The notes beneath the pieces were generated by a model. It did no database searches, was not told the DNA's origin, and saw only the letters and a program-made list of their open reading frames with translations. This document shows, piece after piece, positions 45,083 to 62,639 of a stretch of 64,000 nucleotides of DNA (positions within the stretch are counted from its first letter, which is position 1; each line of letters begins with the position of its first letter). The stretch is from Sulfuricurvum sp. (GTDB taxonomy: Bacteria > Campylobacterota > Campylobacteria > Campylobacterales > Sulfurimonadaceae), in assembly GCA_030693335.1 (NCBI GenBank), contig JAUYAU010000011.1, positions 62,001 through 126,000 on the forward strand, in the 5' to 3' direction. The translations under genes and the position numbers were made by a program.

Positions 45083-46885
45083 TTAGGATTCAAAAAAGAA
45101 TTTTTTCTCGTCGCCTTCTTTGTGCAGGCGAATATGAGTGATATTGCCTTTGGGGGAGGTGCTATGGGTCCTACGTGTTTTTGGATCAATAAATTGGACA
45201 CGGGTATTCCCGTCATAGGCTTTGTGATGGGTAACTACAGCTTGTAAATCAGCTTCATAGAGCCGATCGAGCTTGCGTTCAAATGCGTTCAGTGCATCTT
45301 CTTGCGCTTTGATCATTACTGCTTCGTTTTTTAGAGATTCAACGGCACTTTTATACTGGGTAAGACGTTCTTTGTCTGATTTAAGAGGTTCACGATTTTG
45401 GCGGCTTGCAATATTGATATTTTCAATGGTTCGTTGAATGCGGGTACGATCTTCTTTGAGAAGAAGCTCTTGTTGAAGGTATTTTTTACCTTTTTCTCTC
45501 AATTCAAGTTGTTTGCGTGCCAATTCATCCTCTAAAACAGTTATTTGTTCCAGATAGCTCGGAATTGCTCTGGGATTGATGATAAGATCATTGCCATCAC
45601 CTACGATGCTTTTAATTTCAATCGATTCGAGTGCGGTAATTTTGGCATTGGAATAAAGAACATCGATGATGACACGTTGTGCAATGATCTCTCCTCCGGA
45701 CATGCTTTTTACATACACCGTTTGGGCTTCTACGGTTCCGGCTTCGAGAATATCGATAATGGCATCTTTGGCTTTTAGATTTCCGCGATGGAGATGGATG
45801 GTGGCGTTACCCTCTACTTCTATAAACGATTTTTTATGGGTTTGCGCTCCGATGGTGACTTCACAGGCTTGGATTTTAGTATTGCTGCCTATGGTTCCTT
45901 TAACATCAAGTGTTTGGACATCGATATTGACTCCAGATCCGACAGCATCATCCCCCTCTTCACCGGCTCCAATTTTAATATTGATCTCTTTTTCGCTACC
46001 CGCTTCGAGAGAACCGGTACTTTTGAAGCTGGCACTTTTTAAATGAAGATTCTGGCTGATGGTAAAGAGACCGTTCTTGCGCTCGACGAATCCCGATTTG
46101 GTGGCATAAAATCGGATGGAATGGTGATCTTCTTCAGCCCTAATACTTTGGGAGTCTGTATTAATCGCTTTGGCATAACGAATCAGCGGATCGCCTACGT
46201 GAATATATTCCCCTGTACAGCTTCGTCCGTCTACCCCGTTTTGAGGTAGGATATATTCAAGAATAAGGTCATCTACTTCAACGCCGTCAAGTAGATTATT
46301 GCTGCGTTGGATTTTTTTATAGTGAAGTATTACGTTGTCATTGATTGGAGCAGCAGGTGGAAAAAAGTGGGCGATAGGTAGTCGGTAGGGTTCTGTAAGC
46401 GGTCCCTCTTTTTGGATTTTGAGAAGCATCGCATTGATCTCTTTTTCGAGACTTCCATCGGTGATTCCAATCATAAAACCGCTGCGCAGTTTTTTACGGT
46501 TAATGGTCTCTTTTAAATACTCTTGTAATCCTTTTTTGAGTGGAAGGATCGATGAGGGGTCAACAATGGCTACCAGTTTGGATTTATATTTGTCTGAAGC
46601 CATAGTGAAACGAAAATCAAAATAAGGGTGAGGTACCAAAGGACGTATTAGAAGTTGATACTCTTGCCGAATCAGCAACAGGGGCGAGCGTATTTCCACT
46701 TCGGTGGTGATCTCACCTAGGTCATTACCATCAAGTGTACACCAATCTTCGTCAATAGCTCCTTTATACTGTGTCCCATAAGAGAGTACATCAAAGTCAA
46801 TAGCATCGACCGGGAGATTCCACTGTTGTGCAATTTTTTTAAGCTCAGCAGGAACAGTGAAAGTGGTTATTTTAATTGTGTGCAA
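45083..46885 (-). CDS. FapA (DUF342) family protein, second of a tandem pair
   Basis: 600 residues. The N-terminal ~270 residues form the FapA N region (NGVDGRSCTGEYIHVGDPL is its conserved loop). A long beta-helical stretch follows (about 280-430), with repeated hexad-like turns such as LDVKGTIGSNTKIQ and GTVEAQTVYVKSMSGGEI. Coiled coils lie at about 440-550 (ELARKQLELREKGKKYL). FapA-type proteins are polymer-forming (bactofilin-like) and have been tied to flagellar assembly or polar localisation in some bacteria. It is the same length as its neighbour and near-identical to it in part. Confidence 0.85.
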   Translation of the reverse strand: MHTIKITTFTVPAELKKIAQQWNLPVDAIDFDVLSYGTQYKGAIDEDWCTLDGNDLGEITTEVEIRSPLLLIRQEYQLLIRPLVPHPYFDFRFTMASDKYKSKLVAIVDPSSILPLKKGLQEYLKETINRKKLRSGFMIGITDGSLEKEINAMLLKIQKEGPLTEPYRLPIAHFFPPAAPINDNVILHYKKIQRSNNLLDGVEVDDLILEYILPQNGVDGRSCTGEYIHVGDPLIRYAKAINTDSQSIRAEEDHHSIRFYATKSGFVERKNGLFTISQNLHLKSASFKSTGSLEAGSEKEINIKIGAGEEGDDAVGSGVNIDVQTLDVKGTIGSNTKIQACEVTIGAQTHKKSFIEVEGNATIHLHRGNLKAKDAIIDILEAGTVEAQTVYVKSMSGGEIIAQRVIIDVLYSNAKITALESIEIKSIVGDGNDLIINPRAIPSYLEQITVLEDELARKQLELREKGKKYLQQELLLKEDRTRIQRTIENINIASRQNREPLKSDKERLTQYKSAVESLKNEAVMIKAQEDALNAFERKLDRLYEADLQAVVTHHKAYDGNTRVQFIDPKTRRTHSTSPKGNITHIRLHKEGDEKKFFFES

Positions 46886-46963: not shown

Positions 46964-48766
46964 TTAGGATTCAAAAAAGAATTTTTTCTCATCACCTTCT
47001 TTGTGTAATCGGATATGAGTGATGTTTCCATGAGGTGAAACAGCATGGATTTTAGCTGTTTTCGGATCCACAAACTGAATGCGTGTATGTCCATTGTATT
47101 CTTTTCTGTGCGTTACAACTGCATGTAAATCGGCATCATAAAGCCCATCGAGTTTACGTTGAAGTGAATGTATCGCCTCTTCCTGCGCTTTGATCATAAT
47201 TCCTTCATTTTTGAGGGTTTCTAGGGCATGATTATACTGCATGACTCTTACCTTGTCGGCTTTGTTGGGAAGTCGGTTTTCTCGGATTGCTTGATTGACT
47301 TTTTCTATGGTTTGAGCGATACGTACATGTTGTTCTTGGAGTGAGAGTTCTTTTTCAAGGTACTCTTTTCCTTTTTTTTGTACCTCAAACTGTTTGTTTG
47401 CCAAGTCGCTTTCTAAAACATTAATTTTGTCATAATAACTCGGTATTGCCCGTGGATTGATAATGAGCTCATTGCCATTTCCCTCAATGCTTTTGATTTC
47501 GATGGATTCTAAAGCGGTAATTTTGGCATTGGAATAGAGAACATCGATGATGACACGCTGTGCAATGATCTCTCCGCCGGACATATTTTTGACATACACC
47601 GTTTGGGCCTCTACGGTTCCGGCTTCGAGAATATTGATGGTGGCATTTTTGGCTTTTAGATTTCCGCGATGCAGATGAATGGTGGCATTTTCCTCGACTT
47701 CAATCAATGATTTTTTATGGGTTTGCGCACCTATAGTGACTTCACAGGCTTGGATTTTTGTATTGCTGCCGATGGTTCCTTTCACATCGAGTGTTTGAAC
47801 GTCGATGTTAACACCTGCTCCAATGGCGTCACCATCCTCTTCACCGGCTCCAATTTTAATATTGATCTCTTTTTCGCTACCCGCTTCGAGAGAGCCGGTA
47901 CTTTTGAAGCTGGCACTTTTTAAATGAAGATCCTGGCTGATGGTAAAGAGACCGTTCTTGCGCTCGACGAATCCAGATTTAGTGGCATAAAATCGGATGG
48001 AATGGTGATCTTCTTCGGCCCGTAAGGTTTGAGAATCGATGCCTATAGCATGCCCATAACGTATAAGCGGTTCACCGACAGGTATATGCTCGCCCGTACA
48101 GCTGCGCCCATCGATGCCGTTAATGGCAAAGATATATTCAAAGATCAGATCGTCCACTGCTACGCCATCAACGAGATTGTTTTCACGCTGGATTTTTTTG
48201 TAGTGCAGAATAATATTGTCATTAACAGGAAGCGTAGGTGAATAAAAAGTGGCAATCGGCAAACGGTAGGGCTCTTTGAGCGGACCTTCTTTTTGAATTT
48301 TAAGAAGCAAAGACTTGATCTCTTGATCCAAGGTTTGATCGGTAATTCCCACCAGATAGCCATTGCGGAGTTTTTTACGGTAAATGGTCTCTTTGAGGTA
48401 TTCCTGTATCCCTTTTTTGAGAGGTATTTTGGAAGCAGGATCGATGACGGCGACGATTTTGGTTCGGTATTTATTAAAAGCTATGCTGAAACGAAGATCG
48501 AAATATGGGTGCTGCGTAGCGGGATAGACTTTTATGTAGTACTCTTGACGCACTAAGAATATTTTTGATCGTATTTCTACTTCAGTGGTAACATCTTCGA
48601 GCTTGTCTCCTTCAAGTGCTTTCCAGTCTTCATCAACAATTCCTTTGTATTGGGTCTGATAGGAGAGCAGATCAAAACTAATCGCTTCGAGTGGAAGGTG
48701 CTCTTGCTGTGCAATTTTTTTGAGCTCATTTTGAATATTGAATGTGGATATTTGAATACTGTCCAA
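46964..48766 (-). CDS. FapA (DUF342) family protein, first of a tandem pair
   Basis: 600 residues, with the same architecture as the gene at 45083: N-terminal region with NGIDGRSCTGEHIPVGEPL, a beta-helical middle and C-terminal coiled coils. Both end in RLHKEGDEKKFFFES. The genes are 78 bases apart and head to tail, clearly a duplication. The N- and C-terminal parts differ at many positions, while a 181-bp middle tract is nearly unchanged. It has its own promoter at 48811. Confidence 0.85.
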   Translation of the reverse strand: MDSIQISTFNIQNELKKIAQQEHLPLEAISFDLLSYQTQYKGIVDEDWKALEGDKLEDVTTEVEIRSKIFLVRQEYYIKVYPATQHPYFDLRFSIAFNKYRTKIVAVIDPASKIPLKKGIQEYLKETIYRKKLRNGYLVGITDQTLDQEIKSLLLKIQKEGPLKEPYRLPIATFYSPTLPVNDNIILHYKKIQRENNLVDGVAVDDLIFEYIFAINGIDGRSCTGEHIPVGEPLIRYGHAIGIDSQTLRAEEDHHSIRFYATKSGFVERKNGLFTISQDLHLKSASFKSTGSLEAGSEKEINIKIGAGEEDGDAIGAGVNIDVQTLDVKGTIGSNTKIQACEVTIGAQTHKKSLIEVEENATIHLHRGNLKAKNATINILEAGTVEAQTVYVKNMSGGEIIAQRVIIDVLYSNAKITALESIEIKSIEGNGNELIINPRAIPSYYDKINVLESDLANKQFEVQKKGKEYLEKELSLQEQHVRIAQTIEKVNQAIRENRLPNKADKVRVMQYNHALETLKNEGIMIKAQEEAIHSLQRKLDGLYDADLHAVVTHRKEYNGHTRIQFVDPKTAKIHAVSPHGNITHIRLHKEGDEKKFFFES

Positions 48767-55169: not shown

Positions 55170-55463
55170 ATGACAAAAATAGAAATCATTCAAACCCTCC
55201 AAGATCTTAAACCAAAATACCAAAAAGATGGGCTTATTCTCGTCGGATTATTTGGAAGTTTTTCACGTGGTGAAGAACGGGATGATAGCGATATTGATAT
55301 TGTCTATGAGATCGAAAAAGATCAAAAATTCTCCATGTTTAAATATCTAAAATATCTCAGCGATCTTGAAAGATCTCTTAACCATAAAGTTGATTTAGTC
55401 AGAGCCGAAACAATCAAAGCAGATTTAAAACCTTATATTTACAAAGATCTAATTTATGTCTAG
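55170..55463 (+). CDS. mntA: MntA-like antitoxin nucleotidyltransferase
   Basis: 97 residues, minimal polymerase-beta fold. The catalytic motif GS-x10-D-x-D is complete (G29-S30 ... D41-I-D43 in FGSFSRGEERDDSDIDIV). In this family the enzyme AMPylates the tyrosine of its HepT partner, which blocks the toxin. It overlaps the toxin gene by 8 bases. The pair lies between two well-conserved genes, efp and the DJ-1 gene, with a terminator upstream, which suggests a small acquired cassette. Confidence 0.9.
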   Translation: MTKIEIIQTLQDLKPKYQKDGLILVGLFGSFSRGEERDDSDIDIVYEIEKDQKFSMFKYLKYLSDLERSLNHKVDLVRAETIKADLKPYIYKDLIYV

Positions 55464-55800
55464 GGATTGGAAACTTTATTTACGCGATCTTATTTCTGAA
55501 TGTCATAATATCCGAAAATTTACTGCCAATATTAGTTTTGAAGAGTTCACTGATAATACGGAAAAAGTGTATGCAACTGCTAAAGCATTTGAAAATATCG
55601 GTGAAGCAGTTAAACAAATACCCAAAGAAGTACAAGAAGAGTTTGCGGCTGTTCCTTGGAGTGAAATTGCCAAAATGAGGGATGTTTTGACCCACCATTA
55701 TTTTGGTTTAGACGATAAGGTGCTTTGGGATACGCTTGAAGAAGATTTTGTAGTTTTTGAGAGTACGATAGAGCAAATAAGCAAAAAATATTTAGACTAA
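55456..55800 (+). CDS. hepT: HepT-like HEPN ribonuclease toxin
   Basis: 114 residues, all alpha-helical (DUF86/HEPN). The catalytic and regulatory motif RX4HXY is complete as R75-DVLT-H80-H-Y82. The tyrosine is the AMPylation target of MntA. HepT toxins cut RNA (mRNA or tRNA, depending on the system) and act as dimers. Upstream coupling to mntA is by overlap. The helix following residue 40 (KAFENIGEAVKQIP) is a second conserved HEPN feature. Confidence 0.9.
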   Translation: MSRDWKLYLRDLISECHNIRKFTANISFEEFTDNTEKVYATAKAFENIGEAVKQIPKEVQEEFAAVPWSEIAKMRDVLTHHYFGLDDKVLWDTLEEDFVVFESTIEQISKKYLD

Positions 55801-55817: not shown

Positions 55818-56384
55818 ATGCCACGTGTACTTGTTCCCATTGCAGGAGGTTTTGAAGAGATTGAAGCGGTGTGTATCATTGATGTGATGCGCCGAGCGGG
55901 TATTGAAGTAATTATGGGATCTTTAAATGAGATCCTTTTGGTTAAAGGTGCCAATGGTATCACGGTTCAAACAGATCGACCGATTGACGGGATTACAGCG
56001 GACGATATTGATATGATCGTTTTACCGGGCGGCTGGGACGGTACCAATGCGTTGGCCGAAGATGCAAACGTGCAGTCACTTCTTCAGGAAATGGACGCAA
56101 AGGGCAAAAACATCGGTGCGATCTGTGCTGCTCCGTTTGCCCTTTACACCGCGGGCGTTCTCAAAGAGGGGTATACCTGTTACCCAAGTGTCGAAGAGAA
56201 AATCAAGGTAGCAGGATATCAAGGCGATAAAAGCGCCGTGGTGCAAAGCGGCAATGTGATGACTTCACGCGGGCCTGGAACAGCAATCTGTTTTGGCTTG
56301 GCCATTGTTAAAAAATTGGTCGGTGATGAAGCTTACGAAGGACTTCGCGGCGGATTACTTGCCAAGTATTGCTTGCCGGTGTAA
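55818..56384 (+). CDS. DJ-1/PfpI family protein (YajL/ThiJ-like)
   Basis: 188 residues. The nucleophile elbow holds C103 in IGAICAAPFAL, and the acidic partner is in GGFEEIEAV (E13-E16). The fold and length fit YajL/DJ-1 proteins, which protect against oxidative or carbonyl stress; the exact activity is debated. AGGAG lies 10 bases before the ATG. The gene ends 55 bases before the truncated malic enzyme copy. Confidence 0.93.
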   Translation: MPRVLVPIAGGFEEIEAVCIIDVMRRAGIEVIMGSLNEILLVKGANGITVQTDRPIDGITADDIDMIVLPGGWDGTNALAEDANVQSLLQEMDAKGKNIGAICAAPFALYTAGVLKEGYTCYPSVEEKIKVAGYQGDKSAVVQSGNVMTSRGPGTAICFGLAIVKKLVGDEAYEGLRGGLLAKYCLPV

Positions 56385-56423
56385 GACTTTAAAGAAAAGA
56401 TGCAGTAATATAAGGGCAACTAA

Positions 56424-56574
56424 TTTTTGGAGCTGTCTTTTGGATCGTGATACAACTATCAATGAAAATGCATTAAACTATCATGAATATCCTCGTCCGG
56501 GTAAAATAGCCACATGCGTTACCAAGCCATTTGCAACACAAGGTGATTTAAGCCTTGCCTATACTCCTGGCGTT
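56424..56574 (+). repeat. Direct repeat, copy A: 5' end of the malic enzyme gene
   Basis: About 150 bases matching 61358-61508 at an exact offset of 4934 bases. The 135-base coding part differs at four positions. The match also covers the ribosome site GGAG and the TTG start, and ends within codon 45. Confidence 0.95.
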
Positions 56575-56607
56575 TCGCACGAAATCATAGATTTAAAATT
56601 AGAATGA
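56440..56607 (+). pseudogene. Truncated copy of the malic enzyme gene (first 45 codons)
   Basis: TTG 56440 to about 56574 encodes the first 45 residues of the malic enzyme found whole at 61374 ([18 protein letters not shown], then LSLAYTPGV). After that the reading diverges (SHEIIDLKLE) and stops at 56607. It keeps GGAG before the start, so a 55-residue peptide could still be made. There is no catalytic domain. It marks the left edge of the 4.9 kb Nfr-like segment. Confidence 0.92.
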
Positions 56608-56700: not shown

Positions 56701-57870
56701 ATGATGATTTTTGGTTTCACTTCTCGTTTGCTATTGGGCGTATTTATTTTAACAGTTCCATTATCTGCAAATGTGGATGATTTGTTTTGGAATAGGTATT
56801 ACGAATTAAAGAAAAATGATTTAAATGCCGCATATACTTTATTGGAAGAGGCAATAGAGAAAAATCCAACTAATCCCCAATTGCATGAAGAGATAGGATA
56901 TTTACTTATCCAAAAAAATAACAGCGAAAGTGCTTTAGTGCATTTTCAAAAATCTGCTAAATTAGATCCAAGCAATGAAAAGATTCAGCTGCAAACTGCT
57001 TATCTGTTACAGTCAACGGGTAAAAATACGGAATCCTGTCAGCTATTTAAACGTCTTAAGAACTCGGCTGACACTTCAATTCAATTGAAAGCCTGTGAAG
57101 GATTTGGTACTGTAGAACATTTCTGTGATCATCAATCATTAGCACCATATTTTATTGATTTTATGACTTCACCAACGTATTATAGCCGTTTTGATGATTT
57201 GGTTGTCCCAGCAATTTTGCGTGTAGGAAAATATTACGATGTTTTCAATGCACAGATATATGGGATTTCACGTTTAACGCACGATACTGAGTCCAGAGGA
57301 GGGCATGCTCCGGTCATTTATTCAGATAATGTAGTTACTTTTGGTGTAGGCGCAAGTATTCAACCTGTCCAAAAAATTCCGCTACGTGCATATATGGAGT
57401 ATGGTTATGCGTATGATACCACAGAGCGAAATCGATCACGAACTAGGGATGATTTTAGAGCGGGGCTAACTTTTTTTGATAGTTGGGTACCAAAACCAAA
57501 ATGTGGATCTGAAAGTACTTGGTTTGGGACTAGAGCTGGAAATTTATACATGGATGTTAGTTATTATTCACGGTATGACGATATGATCGGTTATTTCCGA
57601 TATAGAGATGGGTTATCGATATTTGAAAAAGAGAAACAACAATGGTTCTTATTTGGTCGAGTGTTTGTTGCGGCTGATTCGAAGGGAGAGTATTATAATA
57701 ATATCATAGAAGTGGGTCCAACACTCTCATATGTTCCTGATTATCAAATGGGTTTGAGCATAGAAGCGGATATTATAAAGGGATATTATATTGGACCAAT
57801 GGGTTCTAATCCGTATGGAACAAACTATGACGATTTCCGTCTAAGTGTTAATTATCGTCATACTTTTTAA
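56701..57870 (+). CDS. NfrA-like TPR outer-membrane protein (glycan export/phage N4 adsorption family)
   Basis: 389 residues. The signal peptide (LLLGVFILTVPLSANV) precedes about three TPR-like helix pairs at residues ~30-135 (NPTNPQLHEEIGYLLIQ; SALVHFQKSAKLDPSNEKIQ). A C-terminal part has beta strands alternating in aromatic residues (YMEYGYAYDTTER; YMDVSYYSRYDDMIGYFRYR) and ends in YRHTF, as outer-membrane barrels do. The C-terminal region resembles the bacteriophage N4 adsorption protein A domain. NfrA of E. coli is about 990 residues, so this is a short form. GGGGCAGG is the ribosome site. The next gene is NfrB-like, 10 bases on. Confidence 0.75.
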   Translation: MMIFGFTSRLLLGVFILTVPLSANVDDLFWNRYYELKKNDLNAAYTLLEEAIEKNPTNPQLHEEIGYLLIQKNNSESALVHFQKSAKLDPSNEKIQLQTAYLLQSTGKNTESCQLFKRLKNSADTSIQLKACEGFGTVEHFCDHQSLAPYFIDFMTSPTYYSRFDDLVVPAILRVGKYYDVFNAQIYGISRLTHDTESRGGHAPVIYSDNVVTFGVGASIQPVQKIPLRAYMEYGYAYDTTERNRSRTRDDFRAGLTFFDSWVPKPKCGSESTWFGTRAGNLYMDVSYYSRYDDMIGYFRYRDGLSIFEKEKQQWFLFGRVFVAADSKGEYYNNIIEVGPTLSYVPDYQMGLSIEADIIKGYYIGPMGSNPYGTNYDDFRLSVNYRHTF

Positions 57871-57880
57871 AGGAGTTTGT

Positions 57881-59743
57881 ATGGGATGGGAATATTTTGG
57901 CGAGGTTATGCAGGTAATTCTTATCATTGTTGCTTCTGTATTTTTAGTATCCGGATTAGATGATTTTTTCATTGATTCGGTGTATTGGATTCGATTACTT
58001 TATCGAAAATGGAAAACACGTCATTATGAGCCGTTGAGCTTAGAGCTGTTATCGGAAAAACCTGAACAAAAAATCGCAGTGATGATACCGTGTTGGGATG
58101 AAGGCAAAGTGATCGGGCCTATGCTTGACAATATGCTTAAAATGGTAAAGTATGACAACTATGAAATTTTTGTCGGAATGTATCCTAATGATGAACGGAC
58201 AAAAGCGGCAGTAGATGAAATACGTGAACGTACGCATCGTATTCATGAGATAATCTGTCCTCATCCTGGCCCTACCAGCAAAGCTGATAATCTTAATTGG
58301 ATATTTCAAGGTATTATGCTCCAAGAAGAGCGAAATAAACAGAAATATGACATTGTATTGATGCATGATGCAGAAGATGTCATTCATCCATTTGCATTTA
58401 AACTGTACAACTATCTATTACCGAGAAAAGATATGGTTCAAACACCTGTTTTACCTCTGGAAGTTCCTTGGTACTATATAACACATTGGACATATAATGA
58501 TGAGTTTGCCGAAATGCACACAAAGGACTTGGTCGTCAGGGAAGCAATTAACGGTCTTGTCCCATCGGCGGGTGTAGGTACGGCATTCTCACGTGCTGCG
58601 ATTGATAAACTTGCACAACTTTATAATAATCAAGTTTTCAATATTAAAATGTTGACGGAAGATTATGATTTTGCCCTTCGTTTGCATCAAAACGGGTTTT
58701 CCAGTATCTTTGTACAACAGTATATTACACGTGTGGTAAACCGTCCTAAATGGTATTTTTTCGGAGAATTAGTACCGGTACAAAAAAAAGAGTGGATTGC
58801 GACCCGATCACTTTTTCCTATCAGCTATTCTAATGCTGTACGTCAAAAATCACGTTGGATATTGGGTATTTCATTACAAGAATGGCGGGAATCAAAATGG
58901 GAAGGAGATTTGCCGACACGATATACTCTGTATCGAGATCGTAAAGCATTATTGGCTCATTTAGTAAATGTACTCGCTTATTTTATACTCATTTATTTTA
59001 TCACTTATTCATTATGGAACCGCTTTTCTCCGGAAACATTAAAATTGGTTCCATTGGTTGATAATACCGGTTGGTTATGGATTTTATTGTGGATCAATTT
59101 TGGAATTATGATTCAAAGGCTTATTGAAAAAGTTGTTTCGGTCAGTCGGGTTTATGGGATTTATCAAGGGATATTTAGTATTCCTCGTATTTTGTATGCG
59201 AATATTATCAATTTTCATGCAACTTTTATTGCATTCAGCTCTTTTATACGTTGGATCAATGATGGACAATCGCCAAAATGGGTCAAGACAGCCAATGTTT
59301 TTCCAACTACCAAACAATTATCATCTTATCGAAGAAAATTTGGGGATTTATTGCTTGAAAACCATTACATTACAGGTGATATCCTTAAGCAAGCACTTGA
59401 CGCTCAAAAAAAATCAGGTCAAAAATTGGGAGAATATCTTTTAAGAAATCATCTTATCACGGAAGAGCAGATGATAATTATTCTTTCTGAACAGTATGCT
59501 ATTCCCTTGATAGGGATAGAAAATAGCACTATGATTTATGAAATGCCATTGGAACAAAAAGAATGGCTAGCTAAGCATGAAGCAATATTGGTTAAAACAC
59601 CTTCAAATACGATTGTTGCTGCAATCTCAACTCCAATTGAAGAAGAAGAGATTAATGTTTTCAAAGCAATTTTTGGAAATGATATTTCTTTACGATTAGC
59701 ATTGCGCAATTCAATAGATAAAAAACAAGAAGCATTTGGATAA
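57881..59743 (+). CDS. NfrB-like processive glycosyltransferase with C-terminal MshEN (c-di-GMP) domain
   Basis: 620 residues from ATG 57881 (AGGAG 5 bases upstream). An N-terminal membrane helix leads into a GT2 catalytic domain with VMIPCWDEGKVIG, the DxD-like HDAEDVIHP, TEDYDFALRLHQNG and QKSRWILGISLQEW. These are the D, DxD, TED and Q-x-x-R-W motifs of processive synthases. Membrane helices follow (YFILIYFITYSLW; LWILLWINFGIMI). From 486 on two 24-residue MshEN motifs (KFGDLL...LDAQ, 486-509; KLGEYL...LSEQ, 515-538) are separated by 5 residues, the spacing known for c-di-GMP binding. It probably makes a polysaccharide under c-di-GMP control. Confidence 0.9.
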   Translation: MGWEYFGEVMQVILIIVASVFLVSGLDDFFIDSVYWIRLLYRKWKTRHYEPLSLELLSEKPEQKIAVMIPCWDEGKVIGPMLDNMLKMVKYDNYEIFVGMYPNDERTKAAVDEIRERTHRIHEIICPHPGPTSKADNLNWIFQGIMLQEERNKQKYDIVLMHDAEDVIHPFAFKLYNYLLPRKDMVQTPVLPLEVPWYYITHWTYNDEFAEMHTKDLVVREAINGLVPSAGVGTAFSRAAIDKLAQLYNNQVFNIKMLTEDYDFALRLHQNGFSSIFVQQYITRVVNRPKWYFFGELVPVQKKEWIATRSLFPISYSNAVRQKSRWILGISLQEWRESKWEGDLPTRYTLYRDRKALLAHLVNVLAYFILIYFITYSLWNRFSPETLKLVPLVDNTGWLWILLWINFGIMIQRLIEKVVSVSRVYGIYQGIFSIPRILYANIINFHATFIAFSSFIRWINDGQSPKWVKTANVFPTTKQLSSYRRKFGDLLLENHYITGDILKQALDAQKKSGQKLGEYLLRNHLITEEQMIIILSEQYAIPLIGIENSTMIYEMPLEQKEWLAKHEAILVKTPSNTIVAAISTPIEEEEINVFKAIFGNDISLRLALRNSIDKKQEAFG

Positions 59744-59747
59744 TGTA

Positions 59748-60776
59748 ATGATGAATATCGCTTTAGTTTTTGGTACACGTCCTGAAGCGATTAAAATGGT
59801 TCCCATAATTGATGTTTTAAAAAGAAAAAAGGAACTTTTTAAGACTACCATCATCGTTACGGGGCAGCACAAGGAGATGCTTCAGCAGCATCTGGAAGTT
59901 TTACAATGTTCACCGGATATCAATTTTGATGTTATGTCCAACAATCAAAGTTTATTTGATATTACAAATGCAATTTTGAGCAATATTAAGGAATTCTTGC
60001 AAAAGATTAAACCGGATCTTGTTTTGGTACATGGTGACACGACAACTGCTATGGTATCTGCATTATGCGCGTTTTATTTGAAAATCCCCGTAGGGCATGT
60101 AGAAGCAGGCTTACGTACTCATCAACGTTATTCTCCATATCCCGAAGAAATGAATCGAAAACTAATAGCGGATTTGGCTACATTTCATTTCGCACCGACT
60201 AAGCAAAGCTATGATAACCTTATCAACGAAGGTATTAAATCAGAATCGATCGAAATTACGGGTAATACGGTAATAGATGCACTATTCAAGATGATAAACA
60301 CTTTTCAAGATCAAAAAAATGTTGATAGGATAAATTGTAAATTTTTAAAAACTGGATATCGCCCAGATTTAAATAAAATTGTATTAATTACAGGGCATAG
60401 AAGAGAAAATTTTGGTTATGGAATCGATCAAATTTGTGAGGCTATTTATAGATTGGCAAAAGAATACAGTGATATTGATTTCGTTTACCCCGTTCATATG
60501 AATCCAAATGTGCGCAGTAAAGTTTATAAAATATTATCGGATGTAAACAATGTTTATTTACTTGAACCGCTTGACTATGATCAATTTGTTTTTCTAATGA
60601 AAGCTTCTTATATCATATTAACAGACAGCGGAGGAATACAAGAAGAAGCTGCGGCCTTGGGTAAACCGACATTGGTGATGCGAAATATTAGTGAAAGGCC
60701 TGAAGTGCTCTTTGGTAGTATTAAAGTGGTAGGAACGAAAGCAGATAATATTTTTAATGAAGCAAAACATCTGTAA
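59748..60776 (+). CDS. wecB: UDP-N-acetylglucosamine 2-epimerase, truncated by an in-frame stop
   Basis: 342 residues up to TAA 60774, against about 375 for the family. It opens with IALVFGTRPEAIKMVPI. LVHGDTTTAMVSAL, VGHVEAGLRTH and SPYPEEMNRKL are family blocks, and ITGHRRENFG and LTDSGGIQEEAAALGKPTLV complete the active-site regions. Beyond the stop the same frame stays open for 43 codons and reads FPYGKGDASVKIVAFIEK, the usual WecB C-terminus. The gene is therefore full length but interrupted by one nonsense codon. It makes UDP-ManNAc. ATG 59748 or 59751 may start it; GGA is the only ribosome hint. Confidence 0.9.
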   Translation: MMNIALVFGTRPEAIKMVPIIDVLKRKKELFKTTIIVTGQHKEMLQQHLEVLQCSPDINFDVMSNNQSLFDITNAILSNIKEFLQKIKPDLVLVHGDTTTAMVSALCAFYLKIPVGHVEAGLRTHQRYSPYPEEMNRKLIADLATFHFAPTKQSYDNLINEGIKSESIEITGNTVIDALFKMINTFQDQKNVDRINCKFLKTGYRPDLNKIVLITGHRRENFGYGIDQICEAIYRLAKEYSDIDFVYPVHMNPNVRSKVYKILSDVNNVYLLEPLDYDQFVFLMKASYIILTDSGGIQEEAAALGKPTLVMRNISERPEVLFGSIKVVGTKADNIFNEAKHL

Positions 60777-60908
60777 GAGAATACAGATTATTATCAATCT
60801 AAGGCTACAGCGTCATTTCCATATGGAAAAGGGGACGCATCAGTTAAGATAGTAGCATTTATTGAAAAAAATATGAAAAGAATAAAAGAAGGAGGATTCC
60901 GACCATAA
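60777..60908 (+). pseudogene. In-frame C-terminal remainder of wecB after the nonsense codon
   Basis: 43 codons in the same frame as wecB and ended by TAA at 60906-60908. The block NPYGDGKAS of normal WecB proteins appears as FPYGKGDAS, then VKIVAFIEKNMKR. No frameshift is needed to read it. Confidence 0.85.
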
Positions 60909-60918
60909 GGTCAGAATC

Positions 60919-61132
60919 TTATACGAAATCGACTTTTGTTACGTGGTGGTTGAGACCAAGTTCAGCCGGGGTGCATCCGAGTGCAAGGCCAACCATTTGC
61001 GGCATATGTGAAATACCGGATGCAATGATAAAATCGTCCAATGTTAAATTGACTAAAGGGAACATTGACTTTTGCTTTGAGCTCAGGATTGGTGTCCGAA
61101 CGATGTTTGGTCATGGCTGTATTGAGTTGGCA
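60919..61132 (-). pseudogene. C-terminal fragment of an HdrB/SdhE-like CCG-domain protein
   Basis: Reading the minus strand from 61132 gives YGSCQLNTAMTKHR and PELKAKVNVPF. After one frameshift near 61050 (an extra base in CCCTTTAGTC) it gives VNLTLDDFIIASGISHM, PQMVGLALGCTPAELGLN and HHVTKVDFV, with a stop at 60919-60921. The order C-Q-x-N ... QMVGLALG ... P-x-E-L-G-L is that of the last cysteine-rich domain of HdrB and of the SdhE subunit of Campylobacterota-type fumarate/succinate reductases. There is no start and the upstream part is missing. Confidence 0.65.
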
Positions 61133-61300
61133 TGATCCGTATGTCGGTTTCCAATCGTTTGACCGAAATAATAAATCGTCGAATGATTTTTATGGGGGAG
61201 GTAATCTTCGATGGCGTTATAGGGTGGTAACTATGCCATGCAACAGGCTTCAGGATACAATTATTATATGCTGGGTGCACGTCTGAATCTGGCATTTTAA
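61131..61300 (+). pseudogene. C-terminal fragment of an outer-membrane beta-barrel (porin-like) protein
   Basis: The plus strand reads HDPYVGFQSFDRNNKSSND and FYGGGNLRWRYR. After a one-base loss near 61221 it reads GGNYAMQQASGYNYY and MLGARLNLAF, then TAA. Alternating aromatic and polar residues and a terminal phenylalanine are the mark of barrel proteins. No start codon or front part is present. It abuts the CCG-domain fragment head-on at about 61132, so two gene ends were joined here. Confidence 0.6.
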
Positions 61301-61373
61301 TAAGAAGCCTAAAAGTATCTTCCTTAAGAGAGGTTGGGGTAAGATAGTTCAATTTATCATTTGGAGTAGTCTT
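61301..61373 (+). promoter_or_regulatory. Leader of the intact malic enzyme gene
   Basis: 73 bases between the barrel fragment and the TTG start. GGAG (61363-61366) is 7 bases before TTG. No clear -10 was found except the weak TAAGAT/TAGTTC stretch around 61341. The last ~16 bases belong to the direct repeat. Confidence 0.35.
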
Positions 61374-61508
61374 TTGGATCGTGATACAACTATCAATGAA
61401 AATGCATTAAACTATCATGAATATCCTCGTCCTGGTAAAATAGCCACTTGCGTTACCAAGCCATTTGCAACACAAGATGATTTAAGCCTTGCCTATACTC
61501 CTGGTGTT
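61358..61508 (+). repeat. Direct repeat, copy B: 5' end of the intact malic enzyme gene
   Basis: Matches 56424-56574. Differences in the coding part are at the positions equal to 56500, 56515, 56542 and 56571; the rest of the 135 bases agree. Confidence 0.95.
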
Positions 61509-62639
61509 GCAGCTCCATGTTTGGCGATAGAAAAAAATCCTGATGATGCGTACCGTTATACTTCGAAGGGTAATCTTGTAGCGGTTATTTCTAATGGAAC
61601 CGCGGTGCTGGGTCTTGGAAACATCGGAGCACTGGCATCAAAGCCTGTAATGGAAGGAAAAGCGATCCTTTTTAAAAAATTCAGCGGTCTAGATGCGTAT
61701 GACATTGAGGTAGATGAAACGGATATAGATCTTTTTTGCAATACGGTTGCAGCGATAGCGGGGACATTTGGGGGAATCAATCTTGAGGACATTAAAGCAC
61801 CTGAGTGTTTTGAGATAGAACGCAGACTGATCGAGCGGCTGGATATTCCTGTAATGCACGATGATCAGCATGGAACAGCCGTTATTTCTCTTGCAGCGGT
61901 TACCAATGGTTGTTTGCTCACTAATCGTGAATTAAAAGATATTAAAGTTGTTATTGTGGGAGCAGGGGCGGCGGCATTGAGTTGTGCACGATTGTATCGC
62001 CATGCTGGGGTAAAAAATATTTTCATGACCGATTCCAAAGGGGTGATTCATGAAGGTCGTGATGATCTTAATGATTATAAAAAAGAGTTTATGTCTCCGG
62101 AGGGGACAACGTTGAATGATGTGTTTATCAACGCGGATGTCGTTATCGGTCTCTCGAAACCGGGAAGCTTTAGCATCGAAAACATTATGCTCATGGCCGA
62201 TGACCCTATTATTTTCACCCTTGCCAATCCTACGCCTGAGATATTCCCTGATAATACGCGTATGGCACGTCCTGATGCGATTTTAGCGACAGGGCGCAGT
62301 GATTTTCCCAATCAGGTTAATAATGTTCTAGGCTTTCCTTTTATATTCCGCGGTGCTATGGATGTGCGTGCTAAAACCATCAATATGGAGATGAAAGTAG
62401 CGGCTTCCATGGCTTTGGCCGCACTGGCACGTGCCGAAGTCCCTGAGTATCTCAATGAAATTTATGGTACGAAGTTGGTATTTGGGAAAGAGTACATTAT
62501 CCCCAAACCGTTTGACAAAAGACTTATTGTTGAGATTTCCAGCAGTGTTGCGGCGGCGGCGGTCAAAAGTGGCGTGGCACGTATAGCATCATTTGATTTG
62601 GAAACGTATAAACATGAATTGGCGCAGCGATTAGAGTAA
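61374..62639 (+). CDS. maeB: Malic enzyme (short form, NAD(P)-dependent)
   Basis: 421 residues from TTG 61374. The MaeB core is complete: [31 protein letters not shown], the metal site in [11 protein letters not shown], the dinucleotide fold [17 protein letters not shown], and [13 protein letters not shown]. It lacks the C-terminal phosphotransacetylase-like domain of E. coli MaeB (759 residues). It turns malate into pyruvate and CO2. Its first 45 codons are duplicated 4934 bases upstream. Confidence 0.95.

Follow-up and report, generated by a model that had tools for sequence, protein, structure and literature searches.

Gene content and organization of the locus

The window, which is the whole 64,000-nucleotide stretch of Sulfuricurvum DNA analysed here, contains three consecutive forward-strand genes between a PfpI/DJ-1-like gene on the left (55818..56384; Pfam DJ-1_PfpI) and an intact malic-enzyme gene on the right (61374..62639; Pfam malic and Malic_M), both on the same strand. 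The first (56701..57870) codes for a predicted PgrG-type outer-membrane porin of 389 aa, with TPRs, a beta-barrel, a signal peptide and a terminal Phe, as judged from TPR Pfam matches, homology and an AlphaFold model. The second (57881..59743) encodes a 620-aa NfrB-type GT2 polysaccharide synthase, identified by NCBIfam NF012033 and its motifs, within which lies a predicted MshEN c-di-GMP-binding domain (59336..59494) recognised by NF053729 and by similarity to PilB/MshE structures. The third (59751..60776) is wecB, a UDP-GlcNAc 2-epimerase gene (TIGR00236, 415 bits) that runs for 341 codons to a premature TAA. An untranslated remainder of 43 sense codons continues in the original frame (60777..60908) and carries a WecB-like C-terminus (FPYGKGDAS), and an inverted repeat with a 10-pair stem spans the likely original wecB stop (60895..60918, forward strand) as a possible operon terminator.

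An earlier sequence-only reading of this DNA described three genes in a row; this is confirmed, and the genes share one strand with tight spacing. The porin stop at 57870 is followed by the nfrB ATG at 57881, and the nfrB stop at 59743 by the wecB ATG at 59751; gaps of a few bases on one strand indicate that the genes form an operon. The start of the synthase is the ATG at 57881, which lies behind AAGGAG; the alternative GTG at 57845 is not needed and merely overlaps the porin gene. Terminator-like sites are not enriched in the region relative to shuffled sequence, and a promoter consensus scan did no better than shuffles.

Several gene fragments surround the operon. To its left is a truncated forward-strand duplicate (56426..56574) of the 149 bp with which the malic-enzyme gene region begins, 96% identical to the right copy at the start of the intact gene (61360..61508, forward strand); the open frame that holds the left copy (56293-56607) runs out into unrelated sequence. 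To its right are a gene scrap on the reverse strand (60922..61065), whose translation resembles by eye an HdrB-type C-terminal end, and a frameshifted forward-strand remnant of the C-terminal part of a TPR/porin gene (61128..61297), assigned to another exopolysaccharide operon by similarity to a protein of the congener G283. A Pfam search with the scrap gave no match.

Two other features of the window were recorded. Upstream of the PfpI gene, an overlapping pair (55170-55800) resembles a nucleotidyltransferase and a DUF86/HepT-like protein and may form a toxin-antitoxin pair; the congener G263 also has the second of the two genes. Further away, two adjacent same-strand genes for 600-aa proteins (45083-46885 and 46964-48766), which look by eye to be of the DUF342/FapA type, share 75% DNA identity over 1.8 kb and constitute a tandem duplication.

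The outer-membrane porin

The first gene had been read as NfrA-like, with its NfrA part reduced to about 390 residues. The description as a TPR/beta-barrel outer-membrane protein holds, but the family assignment does not. A profile search for the N4 adsorption protein A domain gave no match of the porin to PF13283 (NfrA_C) at E-values up to 1, although the NfrA proteins of the Campylobacterota genomes G163 and G513 do match it (1e-20 and 1e-10), and the NCBIfam profiles returned no NfrA equivalog. The porin aligns by BLAST with a 390-aa Acinetobacter baumannii porin whose gene adjoins wecB (35.6% identity over 329 aa, E 3e-64), and further relatives are found in A. variabilis, Legionella gratiana, a Legionella-like MAG and three more gammaproteobacteria; E. 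coli NfrA is absent from the matches. The Acinetobacter member of this different family is itself 390 aa long.

The AlphaFold model of the porin (pLDDT 76, pTM 0.57, four sequences) has TPR helices at residues 24-141 and 12 strands at residues 150-388, and conforms to the plan of TPRs followed by an outer-membrane barrel known from the exporters BcsC and PgaA. Foldseek places BcsC and a polysaccharide secretin among its matches at low TM-score, and PcoB aligns to the barrel with a Z of 13.9 over 190 residues; the rows of the fold search are dominated by the TPR part and do not settle the barrel family. The shared overall plan, together with a weak profile-profile similarity to NfrA_C-type barrels (27-76% probability, varying with direction and settings), is what could be said for a genuine shortened NfrA, a member of the N4-receptor family in a minimised E. 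coli-type Nfr system. Set against the missing PF13283 and equivalog matches and the retrieval of Acinetobacter and Legionella porins in place of E. coli NfrA, we consider that derivation very improbable, and membership of the NfrA family was rejected on the Pfam and BLAST results. On sequence grounds the porin belongs to the PgrG-type family and is not a cut-down NfrA.

The synthase and its predicted MshEN domain

The synthase scores 573.9 bits against NF012033 (cut-off 537) over residues 18-624 of P0002, and 515 bits against the E. coli NfrB equivalog NF008411, which lies under that profile's cut-off of 1170. The motifs DAED (163), TED (259) and QxxRW (QKSRW, 322) align with those of E. coli NfrB and bear out the earlier identification as a processive GT2 synthase; the donor sugar cannot be read from them. 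An unrooted tree of 12 sequences places the synthase outside a clade (support 1.0) that holds the NfrBs of E. coli, Zymomonas and other Campylobacterota.

The C-terminus of the synthase had been described as a textbook MshEN domain. Among the profiles, NF053729, an MshE-related c-di-GMP domain, is passed with 56.9 bits (cut-off 38), but Pfam MshEN (PF05157) stays under its cut-off (20.4 against 23.1); structures of PilB and MshE are similar to this part of the protein. Two 24-residue motifs are separated by a 5-residue spacer, as in MshE, and in this respect the description is accurate; the residues depart from the published motif (PMC5013675), with Lys for Arg in both motifs, Phe for Leu in the first and His for the turn Gly in both. 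E. coli NfrB is also off-motif, yet its Kd for c-di-GMP is near 1 uM (PMC8669469), and binding of c-di-GMP by the predicted domain of the synthase is therefore plausible. The host genome has 38 GGDEF matches and thus owns c-di-GMP signalling machinery.

wecB and its premature stop codon

The WecB identity of the third gene stands (415 bits against a TIGR00236 cut-off of 210), but its end had been placed at 60908, which reads through an in-frame TAA at 60774-60776. The match to TIGR00236 breaks off at position 332 of the 366-position model, short of a full-length WecB, and the genome search with this profile independently flags "1 TAA" within the gene. Beyond the stop the frame is open for the lost 43 codons. 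The missing part is retained in all six aligned homologues, and homologues have PYGDG within it. In the WecB fold the C-terminal helix packs back onto the N-terminal domain; from this and from the conservation of the removed part we infer that the truncated WecB is probably inactive. The profile search of the genome found this to be its sole wecB, with no second epimerase of the WecB family. With the only wecB truncated, the cell has probably lost its supply of UDP-ManNAc and with it the polymer, and the module is probably no longer working.

The TAA may stem from faulty reads or assembly, since only one genome carries the module; loss of the last 43 residues might, besides, leave WecB with some activity. 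Either would leave a fully active module, and an undamaged porin and synthase, along with a wecB frame that is otherwise intact to 60908 and keeps its conserved C-terminal residues, agree with this. Retention of the lost part in all six homologues speaks against it, as do broken genes in related clusters (one wecB copy of L. gratiana and the porin of G585), from which decay is not unusual in the group. Full activity thus seems to us rather unlikely, and we retain the reading of a truncated, probably inactive wecB.

Foreign composition and distribution

The module has a G+C content of 0.351, compared with a median of 0.42 for the window, and none of 299 other 4.3-kb stretches is as low; at third positions its genes have a G+C of 0.26-0.29, against at least 0.35 in 25 other genes. 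NfrB occurs in one of 41 congeners and in four of 397 Campylobacterota genomes, and the porin type in only one of the 397, that of the window. The lowest G+C in the window and this rarity in both genus and phylum indicate that the module is foreign. An RND protein encoded in its neighbourhood has its nearest relatives in Sulfurovum (64.5%) and Sulfuricurvum, in agreement with a host from the Campylobacterota.

The closest NfrB relatives, in Legionella-type clusters, are 43-44% identical, and no donor is found among them. Plasmid transfer was considered and set aside, because the plasmid-borne relatives are all below 60% identity and hence provide no donor, as was a phage or viral origin, with no NfrB relative found in viral contigs. 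The porin occurs also in two Acinetobacter "phage" records of 174-175 kb, which are possibly mislabelled bacterial contigs. On a Zymomonas plasmid (L048), wecB lies directly before nfrB, beside a Tn3 transposase and arsenic-resistance genes; no porin was seen in the stretch examined.

A survey of the order nfrA-nfrB-wecB across Campylobacterota had been proposed; among the genomes sampled the arrangement is present, but only in that of the window. The other three with NfrB (G163, G513 and G516) have NfrA proteins of 900-1057 aa and wecB on another contig. In gammaproteobacteria, NfrB is found in 7 of 369 genomes, with wecB within about 4 kb in six of the seven, and the porin type in four genomes, in all of which NfrB adjoins it. 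Four Legionella-type gammaproteobacterial genomes and the MAG G519 all have NfrB beside the porin and wecB close by (5/5). One wecB copy in the nfr region of L. gratiana is frameshifted or interrupted (L089, 1163-2247), and the nfr porin gene of G585 carries two stops (L054, 7249-9459). Linkage of nfrA, nfrB and wecB is already published and is not new: Junkermeier and Hengge report that genomes without another wecB have one adjoining nfrB, and mention members of the epsilon-subdivision (PMC8669469), and Sellner et al. describe the three genes clustered in Achromobacter (PMC8669472). A literature search on this system in Sulfuricurvum found nothing specific.

This linkage bears on whether wecB is needed at all. 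The synthase might polymerise UDP-GlcNAc or another sugar, its donor not being deducible from the motifs, and truncation of wecB next to an intact nfrB and porin would then be the neutral decay of a dispensable gene. The proximity of wecB and nfrB in six of seven sampled genomes argues otherwise, as do the published linkage rule, which covers genomes without another wecB (PMC8669469), and the genetic requirement for wecB in E. coli and Acinetobacter; we give a dispensable wecB little credence and keep to UDP-ManNAc as the probable substrate.

The insertion site

The interval between the PfpI and malic-enzyme genes (L031, L032, L034, L059, L061) is a variable site across congeners. It is empty in G263 and G170, where PfpI directly adjoins malic enzyme, and filled by other genes in G281, G283, G265 and G274. 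The G283 interval contains a GT2 gene, a polysaccharide deacetylase gene and a TPR porin gene just before malic enzyme, and that of G265 a gene for a GGDEF protein. The remnant at 61128-61297 matches the protein whose gene immediately precedes malic enzyme in G283 (71% and 79% identity, E 1e-19).

The 149-bp duplication flanks the module, and its two copies are equally near the intact malic gene of G263, with 141/149 and 140/149 matches. Along the malic gene (61360-62639), identity to G263 (L030) drops from 95% to 67% and climbs again to 86%, which marks the locus as a recombination mosaic.

Proposed function and history

We propose, with reasonable confidence, that the locus is a horizontally acquired operon of the Nfr/PGR type for a c-di-GMP-controlled ManNAc polymer, and that it is probably now inactive. 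As designed, WecB would convert UDP-GlcNAc to UDP-ManNAc, the NfrB-type membrane synthase would polymerise UDP-ManNAc when c-di-GMP occupies MshEN, and the PgrG-type porin, with its TPRs and 12-stranded barrel, would let the chain cross the outer membrane. The operon would have entered the variable PfpI-malic interval, where a congener holds another exopolysaccharide operon, and its arrival would have left the duplicated 5' end of the malic gene and the wreckage of that other operon. A nonsense codon in the only wecB would then have cost the cell its UDP-ManNAc supply and, probably, the polymer. The idea of a c-di-GMP-controlled ManNAc-type exopolysaccharide module of the phage-receptor kind is in keeping with the genes present and with what is published on the NGR and PGR systems, but with wecB truncated the module is probably not working.

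A more speculative and on balance improbable extension is that surface-glycan operons of the genus are swapped in and out at the PfpI-malic interval, and that the captured operon was silenced by the wecB nonsense codon under phage pressure, which would echo the escape of Acinetobacter through its wecB homologue.

Comparison with known systems

One of the closest known systems is the PGR locus of A. baumannii, the receptor of phage StAb3. Its porin and its WecB homologue are named PgrG and PgrF, respectively, and resistance to StAb3 arises through changes in pgrF or in pgrD, the gene for BcsB (PLoS Pathog 2025, PMC12507263). In the A. baumannii locus compared here, equated with PGR through gene content and not by locus tag, the porin gene immediately precedes wecB, and genes for BcsB and a GT2 lie nearby. 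Both systems combine a compact porin of about 390 aa (the 35.6% identical pair described above), encoded beside a homologue of wecB, with a GT2 synthase and a proposed ManNAc polymer. They differ in that Acinetobacter has the partners BcsB and PgrE, neither of which was found between 56385 and 61373, and a 416-aa glycosyltransferase without an MshEN match, whereas the window has an MshEN-fused synthase and a truncated wecB.

The NGR system of E. coli K-12, NfrBA-YbcH with WecB, is the receptor of phage N4 (PMC8669469, PMC8669472). Its NfrB combines GT2 with a C-terminal MshEN and is 36-37% identical to the window synthase; a TPR/barrel exporter is common to both, and a dependence on WecB is expected. 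E. coli differs in its 990-aa NfrA of the NfrA_C type, in having wecB apart in the ECA operon, and in YbcH, which is absent from the window module.

In the nfr clusters of L. gratiana and related gammaproteobacteria (L002, L089, L052, L053, L054), wecB is joined by an MshEN-bearing NfrB and a porin of the family found here, and L002 has the order porin-nfrB-wecB seen in the window. Their porins are longer (at least 581 aa, with extra TPRs), several of the clusters include BcsB, and gene order varies. The Campylobacterota G163, G513 and G516 also have an NfrB-type synthase and a TPR/barrel exporter, but the exporter is the long NfrA (PF13283 in the two tested), the neighbours include genes of the DUF2334/DUF4434 type, and the window synthase does not group with their NfrBs.

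The comparison separates two porin lineages. Where the exporter is of the NfrA_C type, wecB lay on a different contig in each of the three Campylobacterota examined; exporters of the PgrG type, compact or extended, have wecB nearby. The module opens no new class of system. It shows that glycan systems of the Nfr/PGR phage-receptor type move between phyla as a small gene set, and the parts that deserve attention are its swap-site context and the nonsense codon, since a truncated sole wecB offers a natural test of the loss of such a system through its sugar-supply gene.
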